Shown: positions 259-12,028 of the stretch, in pieces | Layout of the letters: every line of letters begins with the position of its first letter | Numbering within the stretch: the stretch's first letter is position 1 | NCBI GenBank assembly: GCA_023487035.1 | Contig: JAMDEN010000062.1 | Location: 1-35,200 of the forward strand | Length of the DNA stretch: 35,200 nt | From: Actinomycetota bacterium | GTDB taxonomy: Bacteria > Actinomycetota > Humimicrobiia > Humimicrobiales > Humimicrobiaceae | Direction: 5' to 3' | Program-made: the position numbers and the translations under genes | The notes under the pieces: model-generated | Told to the model about the DNA's origin: nothing | Seen by the model: the letters and a program-made list of their open reading frames with translations, nothing else | Database searches by the model: none

Positions 259-388
259 CTAATATAAAATAAATCATCAGGTTAAAATAAAAGGTCAATA
301 AATAAAAGTTTTTAATATTAATTACTAATTATTAATATTAAAAATAAATATTATATTTAATAACTTAATGAAATTTAAGGGAATAATT

Positions 389-1120
389 ATGAAAATAATA
401 AAGATTATTTTATTTATTATTCTTTTTGTTATTATAACTGCTTCCTTAGCTTATGTTTTTATAAGATATCAGGAAGAAAGAAAGCTAACTGAGGCAGACA
501 GCAAAGATGCTGCTATAGCAAAAGAATTATTTAGCAGAGTGAAAGATTTAAAGGATATTAATGAACCTGTAGGAATCTGGGATGAAAATGGGAATTTTCT
601 TGATGTAACTGATGCTACAGTCATTGATGATAATGGGAATATTACTAAAGTTACTAAATACGAAACTTTTAAAGATAAATATGGAAATGATGTTCAAGTT
701 AAATTAAAGAAACAAATTGAAAAAACAAAAGACGGAAAAACCATTGAAAGCTGGGGTTTTGATAGGCCATACAGAATGCTTACCAGATATTATTCAGGAG
801 AAATTAAGGAAATCAGAGAAAATTACATAGTTTTTCTGGTCGAATCAGAAAGTGACTTTGAGGAATTTGAGATGCACCATCACTATTTAAAAGATGTTAA
901 GGATTATGAAAAAGTATTTGATTTTAATAATTATGATTTAAAAAATGATAAGGGATTTATGATACCTCCAGACAGTATTCAAATTGGTTTTAGAGAAATG
1001 GTTACAATTAATGACTTCAAAAAATATTTAAACAAGAAAATAAGTGTTCAGGAAAGCATAACTACTCTTTATAAAAATAGTCCGGAGTCTACTACGATAG
1101 CTTTTAAAGAATATTATTAA
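389..1120 (+). CDS. Single-pass membrane protein of unknown function in a Tad-like locus
   Basis: About 243 residues. I prefer the ATG at 389 over the upstream in-frame ATG at 368, because AAGGGA at 377-382 sits 6 bases before 389 and lies inside the reading frame of the longer form. Residues 4-25 form a strong hydrophobic helix preceded by lysines, so the protein is an N-terminally anchored membrane protein or has an uncleaved signal. The remainder is highly charged with mixed alpha/beta character and an HHH cluster near residue 170. I recognise no domain. It lies 27 bases before the Trp-repeat protein and is flanked by TadE/G-like genes, so it is probably co-transcribed and may act at the cell surface with them. 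That role is inference only. Confidence 0.7.
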   Translation: MKIIKIILFIILFVIITASLAYVFIRYQEERKLTEADSKDAAIAKELFSRVKDLKDINEPVGIWDENGNFLDVTDATVIDDNGNITKVTKYETFKDKYGNDVQVKLKKQIEKTKDGKTIESWGFDRPYRMLTRYYSGEIKEIRENYIVFLVESESDFEEFEMHHHYLKDVKDYEKVFDFNNYDLKNDKGFMIPPDSIQIGFREMVTINDFKKYLNKKISVQESITTLYKNSPESTTIAFKEYY

Positions 1121-1147: not shown

Positions 1148-2509
1148 ATGTTCAGAAAAAATATAAAAAACCTAACATTCTTAGCTATTTTTATATTTCT
1201 TTTAATTGAGTTAATTTTTATAAACAGTATTTTTGCTGAAGAAGAAAAAATATGGATTGATACTTCACACTGGGAAATTCAAACAACTTTTGTTTCGGAT
1301 GGTTACTGGAAAACAAATGAAAATAAAAGATGGGTAGATACTTCCTATAAAGTAAATCAGGGTTACTGGTCTAATGACAGTTATCAGGTTTGGGCAGATA
1401 CATCTCATTGGGTTAACAGTGGATATTGGGTACCTGAAAATTATAATGTCTGGATTAATAGTGGTTATAATAAAGTAATTAATTATAATGTATGGGTTAA
1501 TAGCGGATATACTACATATAAATGGGTAAATTCAGGTTACTGGAGTACTTATTCTTATAATGTTTGGGTTTCAAGTGGTTATATAGCTAAAGTAGAGTAT
1601 GGTTATTGGGAAATTGTAGAAGAATATGGATGGAGTATTAACAGACTTTATCCAGTAATAGGTTCTGCTGGTCATGCACAATGGAGAACAAAGATTTATT
1701 ATTATTGGGTCGATACCTCCCATTATGAAACAAGATATGCAATCAGATGGGTGGATACATCTCATTGGGAAAGCCAATACGTCGATACTTCTCACTGGGA
1801 GCAAAGGCAAAGTACTGTTTGGGTTGATACATCACATTGGGAAACAAGACAACGTTTGGTATGGAAAGATATAAGTTATTATGTAACTGAAGGACATTGG
1901 GAAACCAGAACAGGAAGACACTGGGTTGATACTTCTTATATAGTTAATCAGGGATATTGGGAGAACTATACAACATACAGCTGGGTTGATACGTCTCATT
2001 ATGAAACAAAAAAAGTTTGGGTAACTTCGGGTTATTTCGCCACTCCAATGCATGGTCAAATTATTGTTGAAAAACAACCAGAATATGTATTTACAAAATG
2101 GCACAAGGATGCAAACGGAAATGAAGCTTCAATGTCATTAAAAATTACATGGAAGGTTGATAACAATAATGTTAATTCAGAAGCAGAAAAAAGAAAAATA
2201 AATAAGGTTTATATTTATGAAGATGTAGTCAGATATAATGATAAAGGGATAGAAAAAATAATATTGTTTGATGGTAATGTTTTAAGCGCTGAAGAAGGTA
2301 GCATTGATGCCAGCTGTAAATTTGAACACGCTGGTAATGAAGAAAGTATCTTGCACGTATATGTTTATGCAGAAAGCGGAGAAGCTGGTCATATCTCATT
2401 TGCAAATCCAATAAACGGATTCCGCTCAATAAATATAAGTCCAGATAATTCAAATTTAAATCCGGATTTATGGCTTGGTGGTATTACTTATGAAATTTTT
2501 GAATTTTAA
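1148..2509 (+). CDS. Secreted Trp-rich repeat protein (WVDTSHW / WVNSGY repeats)
   Basis: 453 residues. Residues 1-30 are a signal peptide: basic start, long hydrophobic core, and an A-x-A-like end before EEEK. Residues about 35-310 consist of some 15 degenerate units of two related types. About ten are W-[VIA]-D-T-S-[HY]-[WY] and five are W-[VI]-[NST]-S-G-Y. Several occur as a compound repeat WVDTSHWVNSGYW or WVDTSYxVNQGYW, each unit usually followed by a basic or polar spacer (ETR, EQRQ). Residues about 320-453 are non-repetitive and beta-rich, resembling a small sandwich domain. The Trp and Tyr content is extreme. No ribosome binding site is obvious. The gene sits between a membrane protein and a TadE/G-like protein. 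I do not recognise a named family; a surface binding or adhesion role is a guess from secretion and the aromatic repeats. Confidence 0.85.
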   Translation: MFRKNIKNLTFLAIFIFLLIELIFINSIFAEEEKIWIDTSHWEIQTTFVSDGYWKTNENKRWVDTSYKVNQGYWSNDSYQVWADTSHWVNSGYWVPENYNVWINSGYNKVINYNVWVNSGYTTYKWVNSGYWSTYSYNVWVSSGYIAKVEYGYWEIVEEYGWSINRLYPVIGSAGHAQWRTKIYYYWVDTSHYETRYAIRWVDTSHWESQYVDTSHWEQRQSTVWVDTSHWETRQRLVWKDISYYVTEGHWETRTGRHWVDTSYIVNQGYWENYTTYSWVDTSHYETKKVWVTSGYFATPMHGQIIVEKQPEYVFTKWHKDANGNEASMSLKITWKVDNNNVNSEAEKRKINKVYIYEDVVRYNDKGIEKIILFDGNVLSAEEGSIDASCKFEHAGNEESILHVYVYAESGEAGHISFANPINGFRSINISPDNSNLNPDLWLGGITYEIFEF

Positions 2510-2532: not shown

Positions 2533-2982
2533 ATGAACATTTTTTATAAATTAAAAAATGAGAAAGCTGCATCTTTAATATTAATGGCGATATTAATGCC
2601 TGTTTTTATAATGCTTATTGCTTTTGTTATAGATATTGGTGGTTCAATAATGCTAAAAGAAGAGCTGTATAAAGCATGCCTGATATCAGCTGAAGAAGCA
2701 TCAAAAATTATTGATTTAGATAAAGCTCAAATGGAAGGTTTAAATAATTTAGGTTCTTCTTTTGAAGATATAATAAATGATTATTTTAAAAAAAATTTCA
2801 AACCGATGAAAAATTCAGGTTTAAATAATTTAAACTATAAAGTTGTAGATAGTATGGAAAATCCAAAATATATTTTAGTAACCGGGGAAGCAAATTATAA
2901 AACATTTTTTTTAAAATTTATCGGCATTGAAAATATTAATGTTCATTCTCAAGCTCAAGGCAGATTAAAAAGGATAAAATAA
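2533..2982 (+). CDS. TadE/TadG-like pilus-assembly (minor pilin-like) protein
   Basis: 149 residues. After a short basic start, residues 11-37 read EKAASLILMAILMPVFIML and continue into FVIDIGG. This is the hallmark N-terminus of TadE/TadG-like proteins, in which a short leader with E/A-A-S precedes a hydrophobic helix ending in a V-D-x-G motif. Such proteins are membrane-anchored parts of Flp/Tad pili or related secretion systems. The remaining 110 residues are an extracytoplasmic domain ending in short beta strands. The gene follows the Trp-repeat gene by 23 bases with no clear ribosome binding site, which suggests one transcript. No TadA ATPase, TadB/C or Flp pilin is visible; they may lie upstream of the window. 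TadE and TadG cannot be separated from this sequence. Confidence 0.75.
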   Translation: MNIFYKLKNEKAASLILMAILMPVFIMLIAFVIDIGGSIMLKEELYKACLISAEEASKIIDLDKAQMEGLNNLGSSFEDIINDYFKKNFKPMKNSGLNNLNYKVVDSMENPKYILVTGEANYKTFFLKFIGIENINVHSQAQGRLKRIK

Positions 2983-7559: not shown

Positions 7560-8921
7560 ATGGATTCAATAATAAAAAAGATTTTAGAATTTAAAAAGGA
7601 AGATATTCCTTCTTATGAACCTTACCTTATGCTTGGTGGCGGAACTCCTGGCGTAAATCTTGTTAGAGGTGAAAATATTTATGTTTTTGACATAGATGGC
7701 AAAAAATATCTTGATGCTACAAGCCAGTCATGGGCGCTTCATCTTGGTTATGCTCATCCTGAAATAAACCAGGCTATAAAGGAACAAATTGATTATTCAA
7801 GTCATTTCCATACTGGTTTTTATACTATTCCAAGATATCTACTCGCAAAAAAACTTGCTGAAATTTTTCCGGAAAAAATGAATAGAGTTCTCTTTACTAT
7901 AGGTGGTGGAGTGTCCATAGAAGCAGCACTTAAGGTAGCCATAATTAACAGGCCTAAAGCTCATAATTTTATTTCATTATATGGTGGTTATCATGGAACA
8001 TCATTTATGACAACTGGAGCATCACATACAGGGACTATGGCAAGCGGAAAATACCATGGAGGTGCTACTCTTGCTCATTTTTCACAAAATTTCATAAGAG
8101 TTCCTGCCCCATATTATTACAGACCTTATTTTGAAGTAACAAACAAAGATGACAAGGATGAAGTTGACAGAAGATGTCTTGAAGCTTTAGAAATGCAGAT
8201 AAAATATGGTTCAACTGGACCAGTTTGCGCTCTTTTAATGGAACCACTTCAGGCAAGCGGCGGACAGATAATATTTTCAAAAAATTATCTTCAAGGAGTA
8301 AGAGATATCTGCAATAAGCACAATATCATTCTTATCTGGGATTGTATACAAACTGCATTTGGCAGAATGGGAACATGGAGTGCTGCAGAGTATTATGGAG
8401 TTACTCCAGACATAATGGTTCTTGGTAAATCAATGGGGGCAGGTTATCCAATTAATGCAATAGTAATTAGTGATGATCTTGAAGGCGTTAAAATGGATGG
8501 AATAGACCTTCATACTTTTGGCAATAACCAGGTTAGCCAGGTAGCATCACTTAAAATGATTGAAATAATAGAAAGAGATAATATTCTTGAAAATGTAAGA
8601 AATGTTGGTGCATTTATTAGAGATGGCTTACTTGAAATGCAAAAAAAATCAGATCATATTGGAGATGTAAGGGCTGCAGGTTTTCATATAGGTATTGAAT
8701 TTGTTAAGGACAGGGAAACCAGAGAGCCTGATTATAAAGGTTGCGCTGTAATGAGAGATACTGGTTTTAACAACGGCATTATCTTTGGTGTTGGTGGAAC
8801 AGGACAAGGTAAAGCTGTGCTTAAAATAAAACCTCCATTAATTACGACAAAAGAGCAGGGTTCCGAGATACTGGAAAAATTCAGAAAAACAATCAAAGAT
8901 GTTTATGGGGAGAATTTATAA
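7560..8921 (+). CDS. Class III pyridoxal-phosphate aminotransferase
   Basis: 453 residues, the usual length for class III (omega-amino acid / 4-aminobutyrate / ornithine-type) aminotransferases. Visible features are the substrate-side LDATSQSWALHLGYAHPEI segment, a YGGYHGTSFMTTGAS cofactor phosphate region (about residues 141-155), LIWDCIQTAFGRMG in place of the usual DEVQTGFGR with Asp retained, and the Schiff-base lysine K290 in LGKSMGAGYP. These enzymes transfer an amino group from an omega- or beta-amino donor to a keto acid in the cytosol. GAAGGGAG ribosome binding site 6 bases before ATG. It stands alone between two long spacers. DEVQ to DCIQ is a small departure from the common motif. 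The exact substrate cannot be read from sequence. Confidence 0.93.
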   Translation: MDSIIKKILEFKKEDIPSYEPYLMLGGGTPGVNLVRGENIYVFDIDGKKYLDATSQSWALHLGYAHPEINQAIKEQIDYSSHFHTGFYTIPRYLLAKKLAEIFPEKMNRVLFTIGGGVSIEAALKVAIINRPKAHNFISLYGGYHGTSFMTTGASHTGTMASGKYHGGATLAHFSQNFIRVPAPYYYRPYFEVTNKDDKDEVDRRCLEALEMQIKYGSTGPVCALLMEPLQASGGQIIFSKNYLQGVRDICNKHNIILIWDCIQTAFGRMGTWSAAEYYGVTPDIMVLGKSMGAGYPINAIVISDDLEGVKMDGIDLHTFGNNQVSQVASLKMIEIIERDNILENVRNVGAFIRDGLLEMQKKSDHIGDVRAAGFHIGIEFVKDRETREPDYKGCAVMRDTGFNNGIIFGVGGTGQGKAVLKIKPPLITTKEQGSEILEKFRKTIKDVYGENL

Positions 8922-9061
8922 AAGATTATGAAAGACTTGCAAATAAACTTCTTGAGCATTCTGATTTTATTGATAAAAACCTTCAAAACCATAATTTTGC
9001 TGATAACATGCTTTTAATTAGAGAAATCATATTTGTGAAACAAAATTTACAGAAGCAATAA
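8921..9061 (+). other. Open frame without a start codon after the aminotransferase
   Basis: From the last base of the aminotransferase stop a frame stays open for 46 codons (KDYERLANKLLEHSDF...NLQKQ) and ends in TAA. Its charged, amphipathic composition looks coding, but there is no ATG, GTG or TTG; the only candidate is an ATA at 8918 after GGGGAG. It may be the remnant of a small gene or of an original C-terminal extension. The rest of the 299-base gap (9062-9220) shows no gene. Confidence 0.2.
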
Positions 9062-9220
9062 TTATAAACTACATCTTAATTAAATAGTTATTTTATTAAT
9101 ACTATTAATACAGGTATCAGGAGAGAGAGACACATCTAATAACTGATAAGAGAAAGATAAAAGCAAAAATAAAATATGATATAATTATAAAAATAAATAA
9201 ACTAATATTAAAAATTTAGT

Positions 9221-12028
9221 ATGTCAGAACTAACTTCATTTTTAGATGAGAGTTTTTCACTTAAAGGTAAAAATAAATACTATTATATTCGCAATAAGTA
9301 TAGAACTACCAGATGCTCATTTAATGAAATTTACAATTACTCTAGAAAATTAGCCTGCTTTTTAATCCAAAAGGGTGTCAAAAAAGGTGATAAGATAATA
9401 ATTAAAAGCCCAAATTCACCACAATGGGTAATAGCCTATATTGCATGCATTAAATTCGGATTTGTAATTGTCCCAATTGACTATAAGTCTGATTTTGATT
9501 TTGAAATTAAAATTATTAATCTGGTAAAACCTGAATTTATCTTTTATTCTTACGAGAATGAAACTTTTTATAAATTTACAAAATTTTTTAGTGAAAACAT
9601 TTTTTATAATGAATACAGCAACAATTTTGATAAGGACAATTTTGATAAGGATATAAATGAACAATCAGCTAATAAGTTTAATTATTCAGATTCTGAGTCA
9701 AAATCTAAAACAAAAAACAATTATTTAAAATTTGACATCAGGAAAATCGGGATATTATTGCTTGAAAATTTAGAAACAATCGTTAAGGATTTTGATTTTG
9801 GTGGAAGGTTTTATGAGGATTATTTGATTTTAGATAATAATTTAGCTGAAATAGTATTTACATCAGGTTCAACGGCGATACCAAAGGGAGTAATGCTGAC
9901 TCATAAAAATATCAGTTCTAATTTAAAAGCTGCTAAGCCCGTTATAGAAAGATGGAAAGGTGTTTTTAAGTTTATGATTAATCCCAAACTTTTAAGCCTT
10001 GTTCCATTAAGCCATATGTATGGTCAGGTAATAGGTATTTATATTCCATTAATGATAGGAAGTTCCGTTGTATTTCTAAATAGCATAAATCCAGAAGAAA
10101 TACTTAAAGCAATTAAAAAAGAAAAGATATGGATTTTAGGAGTTTTACCTAAGTTAGCCTCAATAATTAAAAATCACATAGTTAATAAATATAACCTTAA
10201 TTCAAAATCTTTTAAAAATAAGTACAAAAGGTTAAGAAATATTAAATGGTGGATTAGATTTCCTTTGTTTTCAGGTATAAAAATTAAAATAGGATGGAGA
10301 CTTGTAGCTATAATTTCTGGTGGTGCTGCCACTGATTTTGAAACAGAAGATTTTTTCAGATGTCTTGCTTATAGTTTTTTCCAGGGTTATGGACTTACTG
10401 AAACAGCTCCTTTAATTACTTTAACTGATCCATCAAAAAATAAGGAAGGTTCTGTTGGAAGTTTCTTAGATGGCCAACAAATAAAAATTGTTAATGGTGA
10501 AATATATATAAAAGGAGAAAATGTTACAAAGGGATATTATGAAATAGATACTAACAATGCTGGCAATAGGACTAGTGAAGCATTTAAGAATGGATGGTTT
10601 AGAACGGGAGATATAGCAGAAATTGATAAAGATGGCAATGTATTCATAAAAGGAAGAGTAGATGATTTAATTGTTCGCCCTGATGGGTTAAATATTTATC
10701 CTTATGATATTGAAAATGTTATTAAATCTACTTCTAATAAAATTAAAGATTGTGTAGTGTTGGGTATTACAAGAATAGATAAATTGAATGACGATGAAAT
10801 ATTCAGCCAAAGGAGCAGTCAGGAAATTCATGCAGTTTTACTACTTGATTTTAAGAATTATTCTGAAATTAGTGAAAAAGAAATAAATGAAATAATAAGA
10901 GAGTCAAATGATAAATTAAATCCTTACCAAAAAATTGATAGTTTCAGTACATGGCCCGAAAATGATTTTCCAAGAACTCCTACTCTAAAACCAAGAAAGA
11001 ATGAGATTAAGAAAATTGTTGTTGAAAGAATGAAAGCCCAGGAAGAATTTGGACCGATCGAAGAACAGAAAATTGAAAAAAAAGATTTTATTAAATCAGA
11101 AAAAGTAGATTTATATAATCTGATAAACTATGTTCATAAGGTTCAAAAAGATTATATTCAAGATGAGGCTAAACTGCAGGATGATTTAGGATTTGATTCG
11201 CTTGATATCATTGAGCTTACCAGTGCTATTGAAGAAAAATTTGATATAGATTCAGGCAGTTTAAATATAACAAAGGATACAAACTTAAAAGAACTAAAAA
11301 ATTTAATTAATAATCCTCCAAAAGAGGTTTATAAAATACCTTTTTACAACTTTCCATACAATATCATTTTTGTAATTCTAAGAACCATATTTCAGTATAT
11401 CTTATTTCCTTTTATCTCAATTTTATACAGGCGTAAATATGTTGGCAGAGAAAATTTAAAGCATTTAATACGTCCGACAATTTTTATTTCAAATCATGTT
11501 TCTCTAATAGATACTTTTGTTATTTTATATTCGCTTCCAATTAAAATCAGGTTAAAATTAACTACAGTAATGTCTATTGAGCATCATTTTTTAAATTATT
11601 TTAAGGGGACAGGTAATATTTTTAGAAGATTTTTTGAAGCAGTTGGCTTTTATCTTTTTATTTGCTTATTTTTAAATGTTGTTCCATTATCACGAACTCA
11701 TGGTTTTAAGCAAAGCCTTGAAAATATTGGAAGCCTTATTGATAAAGGCTGGAATATTTTAATATTTCCTGAAGGAGCAATTACTATTGGTGGAAATATA
11801 AAGGAATTTGAACCAGGGATTGGAATAATTGCCAAAGATATGAAAGTGCCAATAGTTCCAATAAGAATAGACGGGCTTCATGATATTTTGCATAATGGCA
11901 TTTTGCCCTTAGGACATTTCCCGAAAATTCCACTTGTAAAAATTAATTTTGGAAACCAAATCGGGAATTTAGAAGGAACTTATAAAGAAATAGCTGATAA
12001 ATTAAGAAATATTGTTTTAAAATTATAA
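9221..12028 (+). CDS. Acyl-activating enzyme / acyl carrier / acyltransferase (PlsC) fusion, Aas-like
   Basis: 935 residues with three domains. Residues about 1-610 are an AMP-binding (ANL) domain: TSGSTAIPKG at 214-223, GYGLTETAP from 389, GWFRTGD near 460, GRVDDLIV near 477, and a late NDFPRTPTLKPRK carrying the catalytic-lysine region. A low-complexity Asn/Asp/Ser insert lies near 125-170. Residues about 635-700 are an acyl carrier domain with the phosphopantetheine serine in GFDSLD (S660). After a hydrophobic segment, residues about 735-935 are a PlsC-type acyltransferase with NHVSLID (H759, D764), FPEGA near 850 and VPIVPIRIDG. It probably activates a fatty acid, loads it on its own carrier domain and acylates a lysophospholipid or glycerophosphate at the membrane. 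E. coli Aas has the acyltransferase first and no carrier domain. No clear ribosome binding site. Confidence 0.93.
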   Translation: MSELTSFLDESFSLKGKNKYYYIRNKYRTTRCSFNEIYNYSRKLACFLIQKGVKKGDKIIIKSPNSPQWVIAYIACIKFGFVIVPIDYKSDFDFEIKIINLVKPEFIFYSYENETFYKFTKFFSENIFYNEYSNNFDKDNFDKDINEQSANKFNYSDSESKSKTKNNYLKFDIRKIGILLLENLETIVKDFDFGGRFYEDYLILDNNLAEIVFTSGSTAIPKGVMLTHKNISSNLKAAKPVIERWKGVFKFMINPKLLSLVPLSHMYGQVIGIYIPLMIGSSVVFLNSINPEEILKAIKKEKIWILGVLPKLASIIKNHIVNKYNLNSKSFKNKYKRLRNIKWWIRFPLFSGIKIKIGWRLVAIISGGAATDFETEDFFRCLAYSFFQGYGLTETAPLITLTDPSKNKEGSVGSFLDGQQIKIVNGEIYIKGENVTKGYYEIDTNNAGNRTSEAFKNGWFRTGDIAEIDKDGNVFIKGRVDDLIVRPDGLNIYPYDIENVIKSTSNKIKDCVVLGITRIDKLNDDEIFSQRSSQEIHAVLLLDFKNYSEISEKEINEIIRESNDKLNPYQKIDSFSTWPENDFPRTPTLKPRKNEIKKIVVERMKAQEEFGPIEEQKIEKKDFIKSEKVDLYNLINYVHKVQKDYIQDEAKLQDDLGFDSLDIIELTSAIEEKFDIDSGSLNITKDTNLKELKNLINNPPKEVYKIPFYNFPYNIIFVILRTIFQYILFPFISILYRRKYVGRENLKHLIRPTIFISNHVSLIDTFVILYSLPIKIRLKLTTVMSIEHHFLNYFKGTGNIFRRFFEAVGFYLFICLFLNVVPLSRTHGFKQSLENIGSLIDKGWNILIFPEGAITIGGNIKEFEPGIGIIAKDMKVPIVPIRIDGLHDILHNGILPLGHFPKIPLVKINFGNQIGNLEGTYKEIADKLRNIVLKL

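Follow-up and report, generated by a model that had tools for sequence, protein, structure and literature searches.

A tryptophan-rich repeat protein with evenly spaced turns is encoded in a Tad pilus locus of Actinomycetota and Bacillota and may be an adhesive component of the pilus

The DNA analysed here (the window) is an entire 35.2-kb contig from an Actinomycetota genome bin of 2.2 Mb that is about 80% complete, and all features described below lie on its + strand. The gene of interest (1148..2509; ATG start, stop codon 2507-2509) encodes a protein of 453 residues with five parts: a Sec-type signal peptide (residues 1-30, MFRKNIKNLTFLAIFIFLLIELIFINSIFA; 1148..1237), a first repeat block in which DTSH and NSGY turns are mixed (residues 35-152; 1250..1603), a non-repetitive insert delimited by alignment of relatives (residues 153-186, including EYGWSINRLYPVIGSAGHAQWR; 1604..1705), a second repeat block in which DTSH turns predominate (residues 187-297; 1706..2038), and a conserved C-terminal domain (residues 298-453; 2039..2506), which is a beta-sandwich according to AlphaFold2 prediction and ends, in the alignment, with a conserved Phe. 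An SYGWSVYSFA insert is found in many relatives at an alignment position comparable to that of the window insert. The signal peptide of the original prediction is retained on reading of the sequence: the N-terminus is hydrophobic, ends in SIFA, is modelled by AlphaFold2 as a helix (residues 4-28) and shows no prepilin-type cleavage motif (G/A-x4-E). In the closest relative (genome G004, L031:3692-5066), the gene is spread over two overlapping frames owing to a frameshift or an assembly error.

The flanking genes had been described as TadE/G-like, which is true for the family; in the window itself, however, only the downstream TadE/F-like neighbour is visible. This putative minor pilin gene (family C4; 2533..2982) lies 24 bases after the repeat gene, and its product matches Pfam TadE at E=0.0084, below the cut-off, whereas its relative at locus L035 passes at 8e-5. 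The immediate upstream gene (368..1120), initially taken for TadE/G, instead belongs to a separate family of small membrane proteins (C8), defined by neighbour clustering, with an N-terminal transmembrane segment and a small predicted beta domain that gives a sub-threshold SH3-like match; relatives suggest that this gene starts at 389, and in them TadE is found one gene further upstream. Since the window is a whole contig starting at base 1, the remainder of the Tad operon is missing here.

The exact motif W[VIAKM][DNST][TSI][SG][HY] occurs 15 times in the window protein, in line with the roughly 15 WVDTSHW/WVNSGY repeats first reported; 10,000 shuffles of the mature sequence contained it 0.01 times on average and never more than once. 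A looser motif retrieves 21 turn motifs (DTSH, NSGY, NQGY, SDGY, TEGH), and residues 35-300 comprise 28 Trp, 32 Tyr, 10 His and no Cys. The repeats are thus real, but the picture of a single region of about 275 residues with two interleaved motif classes has to be revised: there are two blocks split by the insert, and DTSH and NSGY, judged from sequence, seem to be variants of a single turn motif. Nor is the aromatic spacing near 11-17 residues, as had been stated, since it is strictly even inside each block (6, 8, 10, 12, 14, 20). When all turn-to-turn distances of 30 residues or less are counted in all members of the family, 232 are even and 3 are odd, the three exceptions being the same PEQG-type turn in Thermoanaerobacter relatives. 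Trp-Trp distances of no more than 26 residues within the window protein are all even, both in block 1 (30 even, 0 odd; residues 35-160) and in block 2 (25 even, 0 odd). These spacings are not independent, as the relatives share ancestry, and the safer argument is that several length classes and separate lineages obey the rule. The even values are 6, 8, 10, 12, 14, 16, 18, 20, 24, 26 and 28, and this diversity argues against the copying of one unit; the mixture of lengths 6, 8, 10, 12, 14 and 20 rules out a fixed-length repeat unit. Recent tandem duplication of the DNA was also ruled out: with the minimum score set to 30, Tandem Repeats Finder detected no array, so the copies have diverged too far at the DNA level and the repeat pattern is old.

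In the strands between turns, Trp accounts for 38% of the residues on one face and 0% on the other; in this figure, the search pattern largely dictates the Trp before the turn but not the one after it. Together, the parity rule, which is new here, and the one-sided distribution of Trp point to an antiparallel beta-meander carrying a Trp stripe, in which strands would change length only by two residues. AlphaFold2 predicts residues 301-420 of the window protein as a beta-sandwich with pLDDT mostly 85-96, in agreement with the non-repetitive beta-rich C-terminal domain of the original prediction. The repeats are modelled as strands at low confidence (pLDDT about 30-80; mean 62.9), and in the AlphaFold model of the Thermoanaerobacter wiegelii relative they are mostly below 50. 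This latter model nevertheless places strands at 180-188, 192-200, 204-212 and 216-224, that is, every 12 residues with three-residue turns, as expected from the parity argument. The regular beta structure proposed at the outset is therefore favoured by the even-spacing rule and the predicted strands, but not by the AlphaFold confidence in the repeats, and it is for this last reason that we infer the meander rather than read it from a model.

Neither the repeats nor the C-terminal domain could be assigned to a named family. Even with E values up to 10 allowed, the window protein matches nothing in Pfam-A, NCBIfam or PHROGs, the CW_binding repeat profile of Pfam included, and a PDB sequence search with it gave nothing significant (a viral VP0 match at E 0.13 was treated as chance). 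Pfam scans of 21 relatives yielded nothing significant, with no TadE/Tad, vWA, PilY1, catalytic or pore-forming domain; NCBIfam scans of 15 relatives were equally negative, an EAGR_box match in one member of the 15 (E 0.014) being treated as chance. Nothing significant came from a PDB profile search of the family, so that the absence of a named repeat family noted originally holds across the Pfam, NCBIfam, PHROG and PDB searches, and a literature search on the motif string found nothing. Foldseek with the whole model found no match at E <= 0.001 in PDB or BFVD; the folds nearest to the C-terminal domain (superoxide reductase, SoxYZ, Ig-like) are not significant (E 0.02-0.2, TM about 0.5-0.6 by target length). 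A phage or plasmid origin was set aside, as tblastn gave no match in phage or plasmid collections.

A scan of 84,980 species genomes identified 29 loci, whose neighbouring genes were clustered and then named with Pfam. Tad (Flp) pilus genes surround the repeat gene in 24 of them, which bears out the pilus association initially guessed from the neighbours. The contigs of four of the five other loci (L045, L052, L054, L055) are too short to tell, and the sole true exception is L059, where the repeats are present and the family C-terminal domain is absent; homologs are thus not mostly found outside Tad loci. The typical gene order is TadZ-CpaB-TadA-TadB-TadC-Flp-TadE-[small membrane protein]-repeat protein-TadE/F-like, with the C8 gene directly before the repeat gene in many loci and a Flp-type pilin (G[AS]TLIE[IM]ALY...) after TadC in eight. 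Pfam identifies TadA as T2SSE (E 3e-38), TadB and TadC as T2SSF, and TadE at E 5e-15; for instance, L035 holds T2SSE, two T2SSF, TadE, SAF/CpaB-like and ParA-like TadZ genes, and L048 holds T2SSE, TadE and an A24 prepilin peptidase. The distance between the repeat gene and the C4 gene ranges from -67 to +66 bases, the two genes overlapping in many relatives, and in Thermoanaerobacter a type IV prepilin peptidase gene directly follows C4. The locus genes scanned included neither a large TadG or vWA protein nor a secretin. The place of TadG/vWA proteins is taken by the repeat protein, but this has a Sec-type signal and no pilin leader, which suggests a separately secreted adhesin, bound at the tip or along the filament.

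The link with this Tad type is also apparent from the distribution of the gene. The repeat gene is present in 19 of 40 genomes of the class, a TadA of the same type (type 1, above 380 bits) in 21 and both in 14; most of these genomes also have another, more distantly related Tad system (about 240-300 bits), which is unlinked to the repeat gene. Seven type-1 genomes seemingly lack the gene, but in all six inspected (G025 left out) this apparent absence arises because the contig stops before the gene would start, and no continuous type-1 Tad locus without the repeat gene was seen in the 40 genomes. Contigs of metagenome-assembled genomes (MAGs) repeatedly end at or just before the repeat gene (G001:C90, G002:C149, G003:C193, G029:C19/C89, G030:C144, G022:C38), and the repeats may therefore break short-read assemblies and hide the gene. 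Over 14 loci, the identity of the C-terminal domain correlates with that of TadA (r = 0.904; 0/2000 permutations as high). Membership of the repeat protein in the Tad locus is thus well supported. In a sample of the phylum, the gene is found in 23/397 genomes and is consequently lineage-limited, with a second home in Bacillota (T. wiegelii, Thermoanaerobacter sp. A7A, T. thermocopriae and Caldanaerobacter subterraneus). Hosts of relatives include many Actinomycetota MAGs, Clostridia MAGs, a Symbiobacteriaceae MAG and a contig binned as Micrarchaeota.

Such near-obligate presence in one Tad type would also be expected of an assembly or envelope-passage factor, for example a sleeve or scaffold associated with the cell wall, which would steer the pilus through the envelope and be structural rather than adhesive in function. 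The conservation of both the N-terminal repeats and the C-terminal domain, and the lack of a secretin among the locus genes scanned, are consistent with this alternative. We nonetheless consider it unlikely, because repeat number and length differ widely between relatives and because the repeats can be replaced altogether, features easier to reconcile with a part that faces a ligand than with a conserved channel. At L058, the C-terminal domain is kept near Tad genes and a different N-terminal part takes the place of the repeats, the arrangement expected for a dock with a variable head, as in the adhesive pilus component that we favour. Conversely, in the type-B relatives (L047, L052) these repeats are joined to another C-terminal domain, which counts against the reading that we favour.

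The genome of the window itself (G000) contains two further traces of the family. On contig C31 (L087, 6176-7517), the repeat protein occurs a second time, broken by a stop and split frames and with another C-terminal domain (GYEIFFNGERF...LLHRGF); this copy is preceded by a C8-family gene and followed by HTH-like and recombinase-like genes, in the same order as at L052. On contig C89 (L086, 146-1005), a remnant consisting of the C-terminal domain only lies beside a pilin 79% identical to the product of 2533..2982, which suggests duplicated tip cassettes.

Similar repeats are also encountered in other contexts. In Symbiobacteriaceae, the L059 protein (7983-10076) fuses period-6 GHWEDQ and VWVPNM-like arrays to Ig-like and zincin-like (HELGHALGLE) parts. 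A 1402-residue open frame with WVDTSHW repeats and a Kazal-like stretch fills the contig binned as Micrarchaeota (L055:1-4207), the origin of which is uncertain. On a viral contig (L060:175-291), only a WVQSGYWET...WVDTSHWETR hairpin is found, inside a protein resembling a phage tail-tip (J-like) protein. The even bias extends to L055 (90% even) and L059 (80% even), and the signal is absent from the short L060 insert. Repeats outside Tad loci (the L059 fusion and the L060 protein), together with a Sec signal that is not accompanied by pilin features, would suit a cell-surface adhesin or a matrix protein with no attachment to the pilus, for which the operon would be a shared location and nothing more. 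This explanation is rather improbable, given the overlap with the minor-pilin gene and the co-inheritance with TadA (r=0.90); moreover, the Pfam scans revealed no cell-wall anchor domain, and no C-terminal transmembrane segment or sorting motif was seen in the sequence. More tentatively, the repeats may constitute a new architecture, an open-ended meander of tandem tryptophan-zipper-like hairpins that varies in steps of two residues with every Trp on one face, serving as a Tad adhesive head in two phyla and borrowed as a module in other settings (the protease fusion, the phage tail-tip-like protein and the large protein of the Micrarchaeota-binned contig).

We propose, with a probability of roughly 0.55, that the protein is a Sec-exported non-pilin component of one Tad (Flp/type IVc) lineage, with its C-terminal domain on the minor pilins and an adhesive Trp face. 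After export by the Sec pathway, the protein, which would not itself be a pilin, would attach through its conserved C-terminal beta-sandwich to the end of the pilus that carries the TadE/TadF-like minor pilins. In the antiparallel meander, three-residue turns (DTS/NSG) would connect strands of variable length and fixed parity, and all Trp would lie on one face as cross-strand pairs beside the turns, much as in tryptophan zippers linked in series. The resulting row of aromatic side chains would be exposed, as originally suggested, and would act as the adhesive surface, most likely for a polysaccharide or else for another surface, and retraction of the pilus would draw the cell to the bound target. 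Polysaccharide appears the likeliest target by analogy with Myxococcus, in which a pilus Trp binds a glucosamine-containing polysaccharide (PMC12691611). The Trp residues could alternatively serve stability rather than ligand binding. We infer the attachment to minor pilins and the position at the tip, as well as the ligand and the exact fold; as the C-terminal domain has no significant fold match, its role as a dock is read from its conservation.

Several known systems share parts of this scheme. Tryptophan zippers are designed short hairpins with cross-strand Trp pairs flanking tight beta-turns; the repeat protein would likewise have such pairs beside its turns, but as a natural tandem series with three-residue turns. 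Choline- or cell-wall-binding repeats are also short aromatic-rich beta-hairpins, whose Trp and Tyr form ligand sites; they have a fixed unit of about 20 residues, however, whereas the units here vary over even lengths, follow another consensus and have no Pfam match. The Caldicellulosiruptor tapirins are secreted adhesins of thermophilic Firmicutes encoded beside type IV pilus genes, a comparable type of protein and neighbourhood, but they are not known to be Trp-repeat proteins, their pilus locus is different and no sequence relation was found here. In Tad systems, TadE/F/G-type minor pilins have been proposed as tip complexes in which variable domains set pilus function (PMC12075869), and Caulobacter CpaL has been proposed as a pilin-vWA tip protein (PMC12607857). 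Like TadG/KilN and CpaL, the repeat protein is encoded with TadE/TadF-like minor pilins and would be the variable, surface-contacting part of the tip (PMC12075869, PMC12607857); those proteins, however, consist of an N-terminal pilin module and vWA or other C-terminal domains, whereas here a Sec-type signal, no pilin leader, no vWA and Trp repeats are found. PilY1 of type IVa pili is similarly a secreted non-pilin that works with minor pilins and has docking and variable adhesive parts (PMC7541494), but the repeat protein has no PilY1 domain match, belongs to another pilus class and would have a beta-sandwich of about 150 residues instead of a propeller. A tip for contact-dependent killing, belonging to a Kil-like Tad pilus, was also envisaged, since the Tad pili with which Myxococcus kills prey have variable tips (PMC12075869); it is very improbable, as none of the 21 members scanned matched a catalytic or pore-forming domain and the composition of the repeats resembles a binding surface, in keeping with the adhesive role proposed above.

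Tad tip proteins have recently been proposed to set what pili touch, and those known are pilins, some with vWA-type heads. If our proposal is true, the family described here would provide a non-pilin Tad tip protein in monoderm and uncultured lineages. It is also present in cultured Thermoanaerobacter and Caldanaerobacter and is hence experimentally accessible, and the parity rule makes a clear prediction, open to checking, about the structure of a repeat family unnamed in the databases searched.
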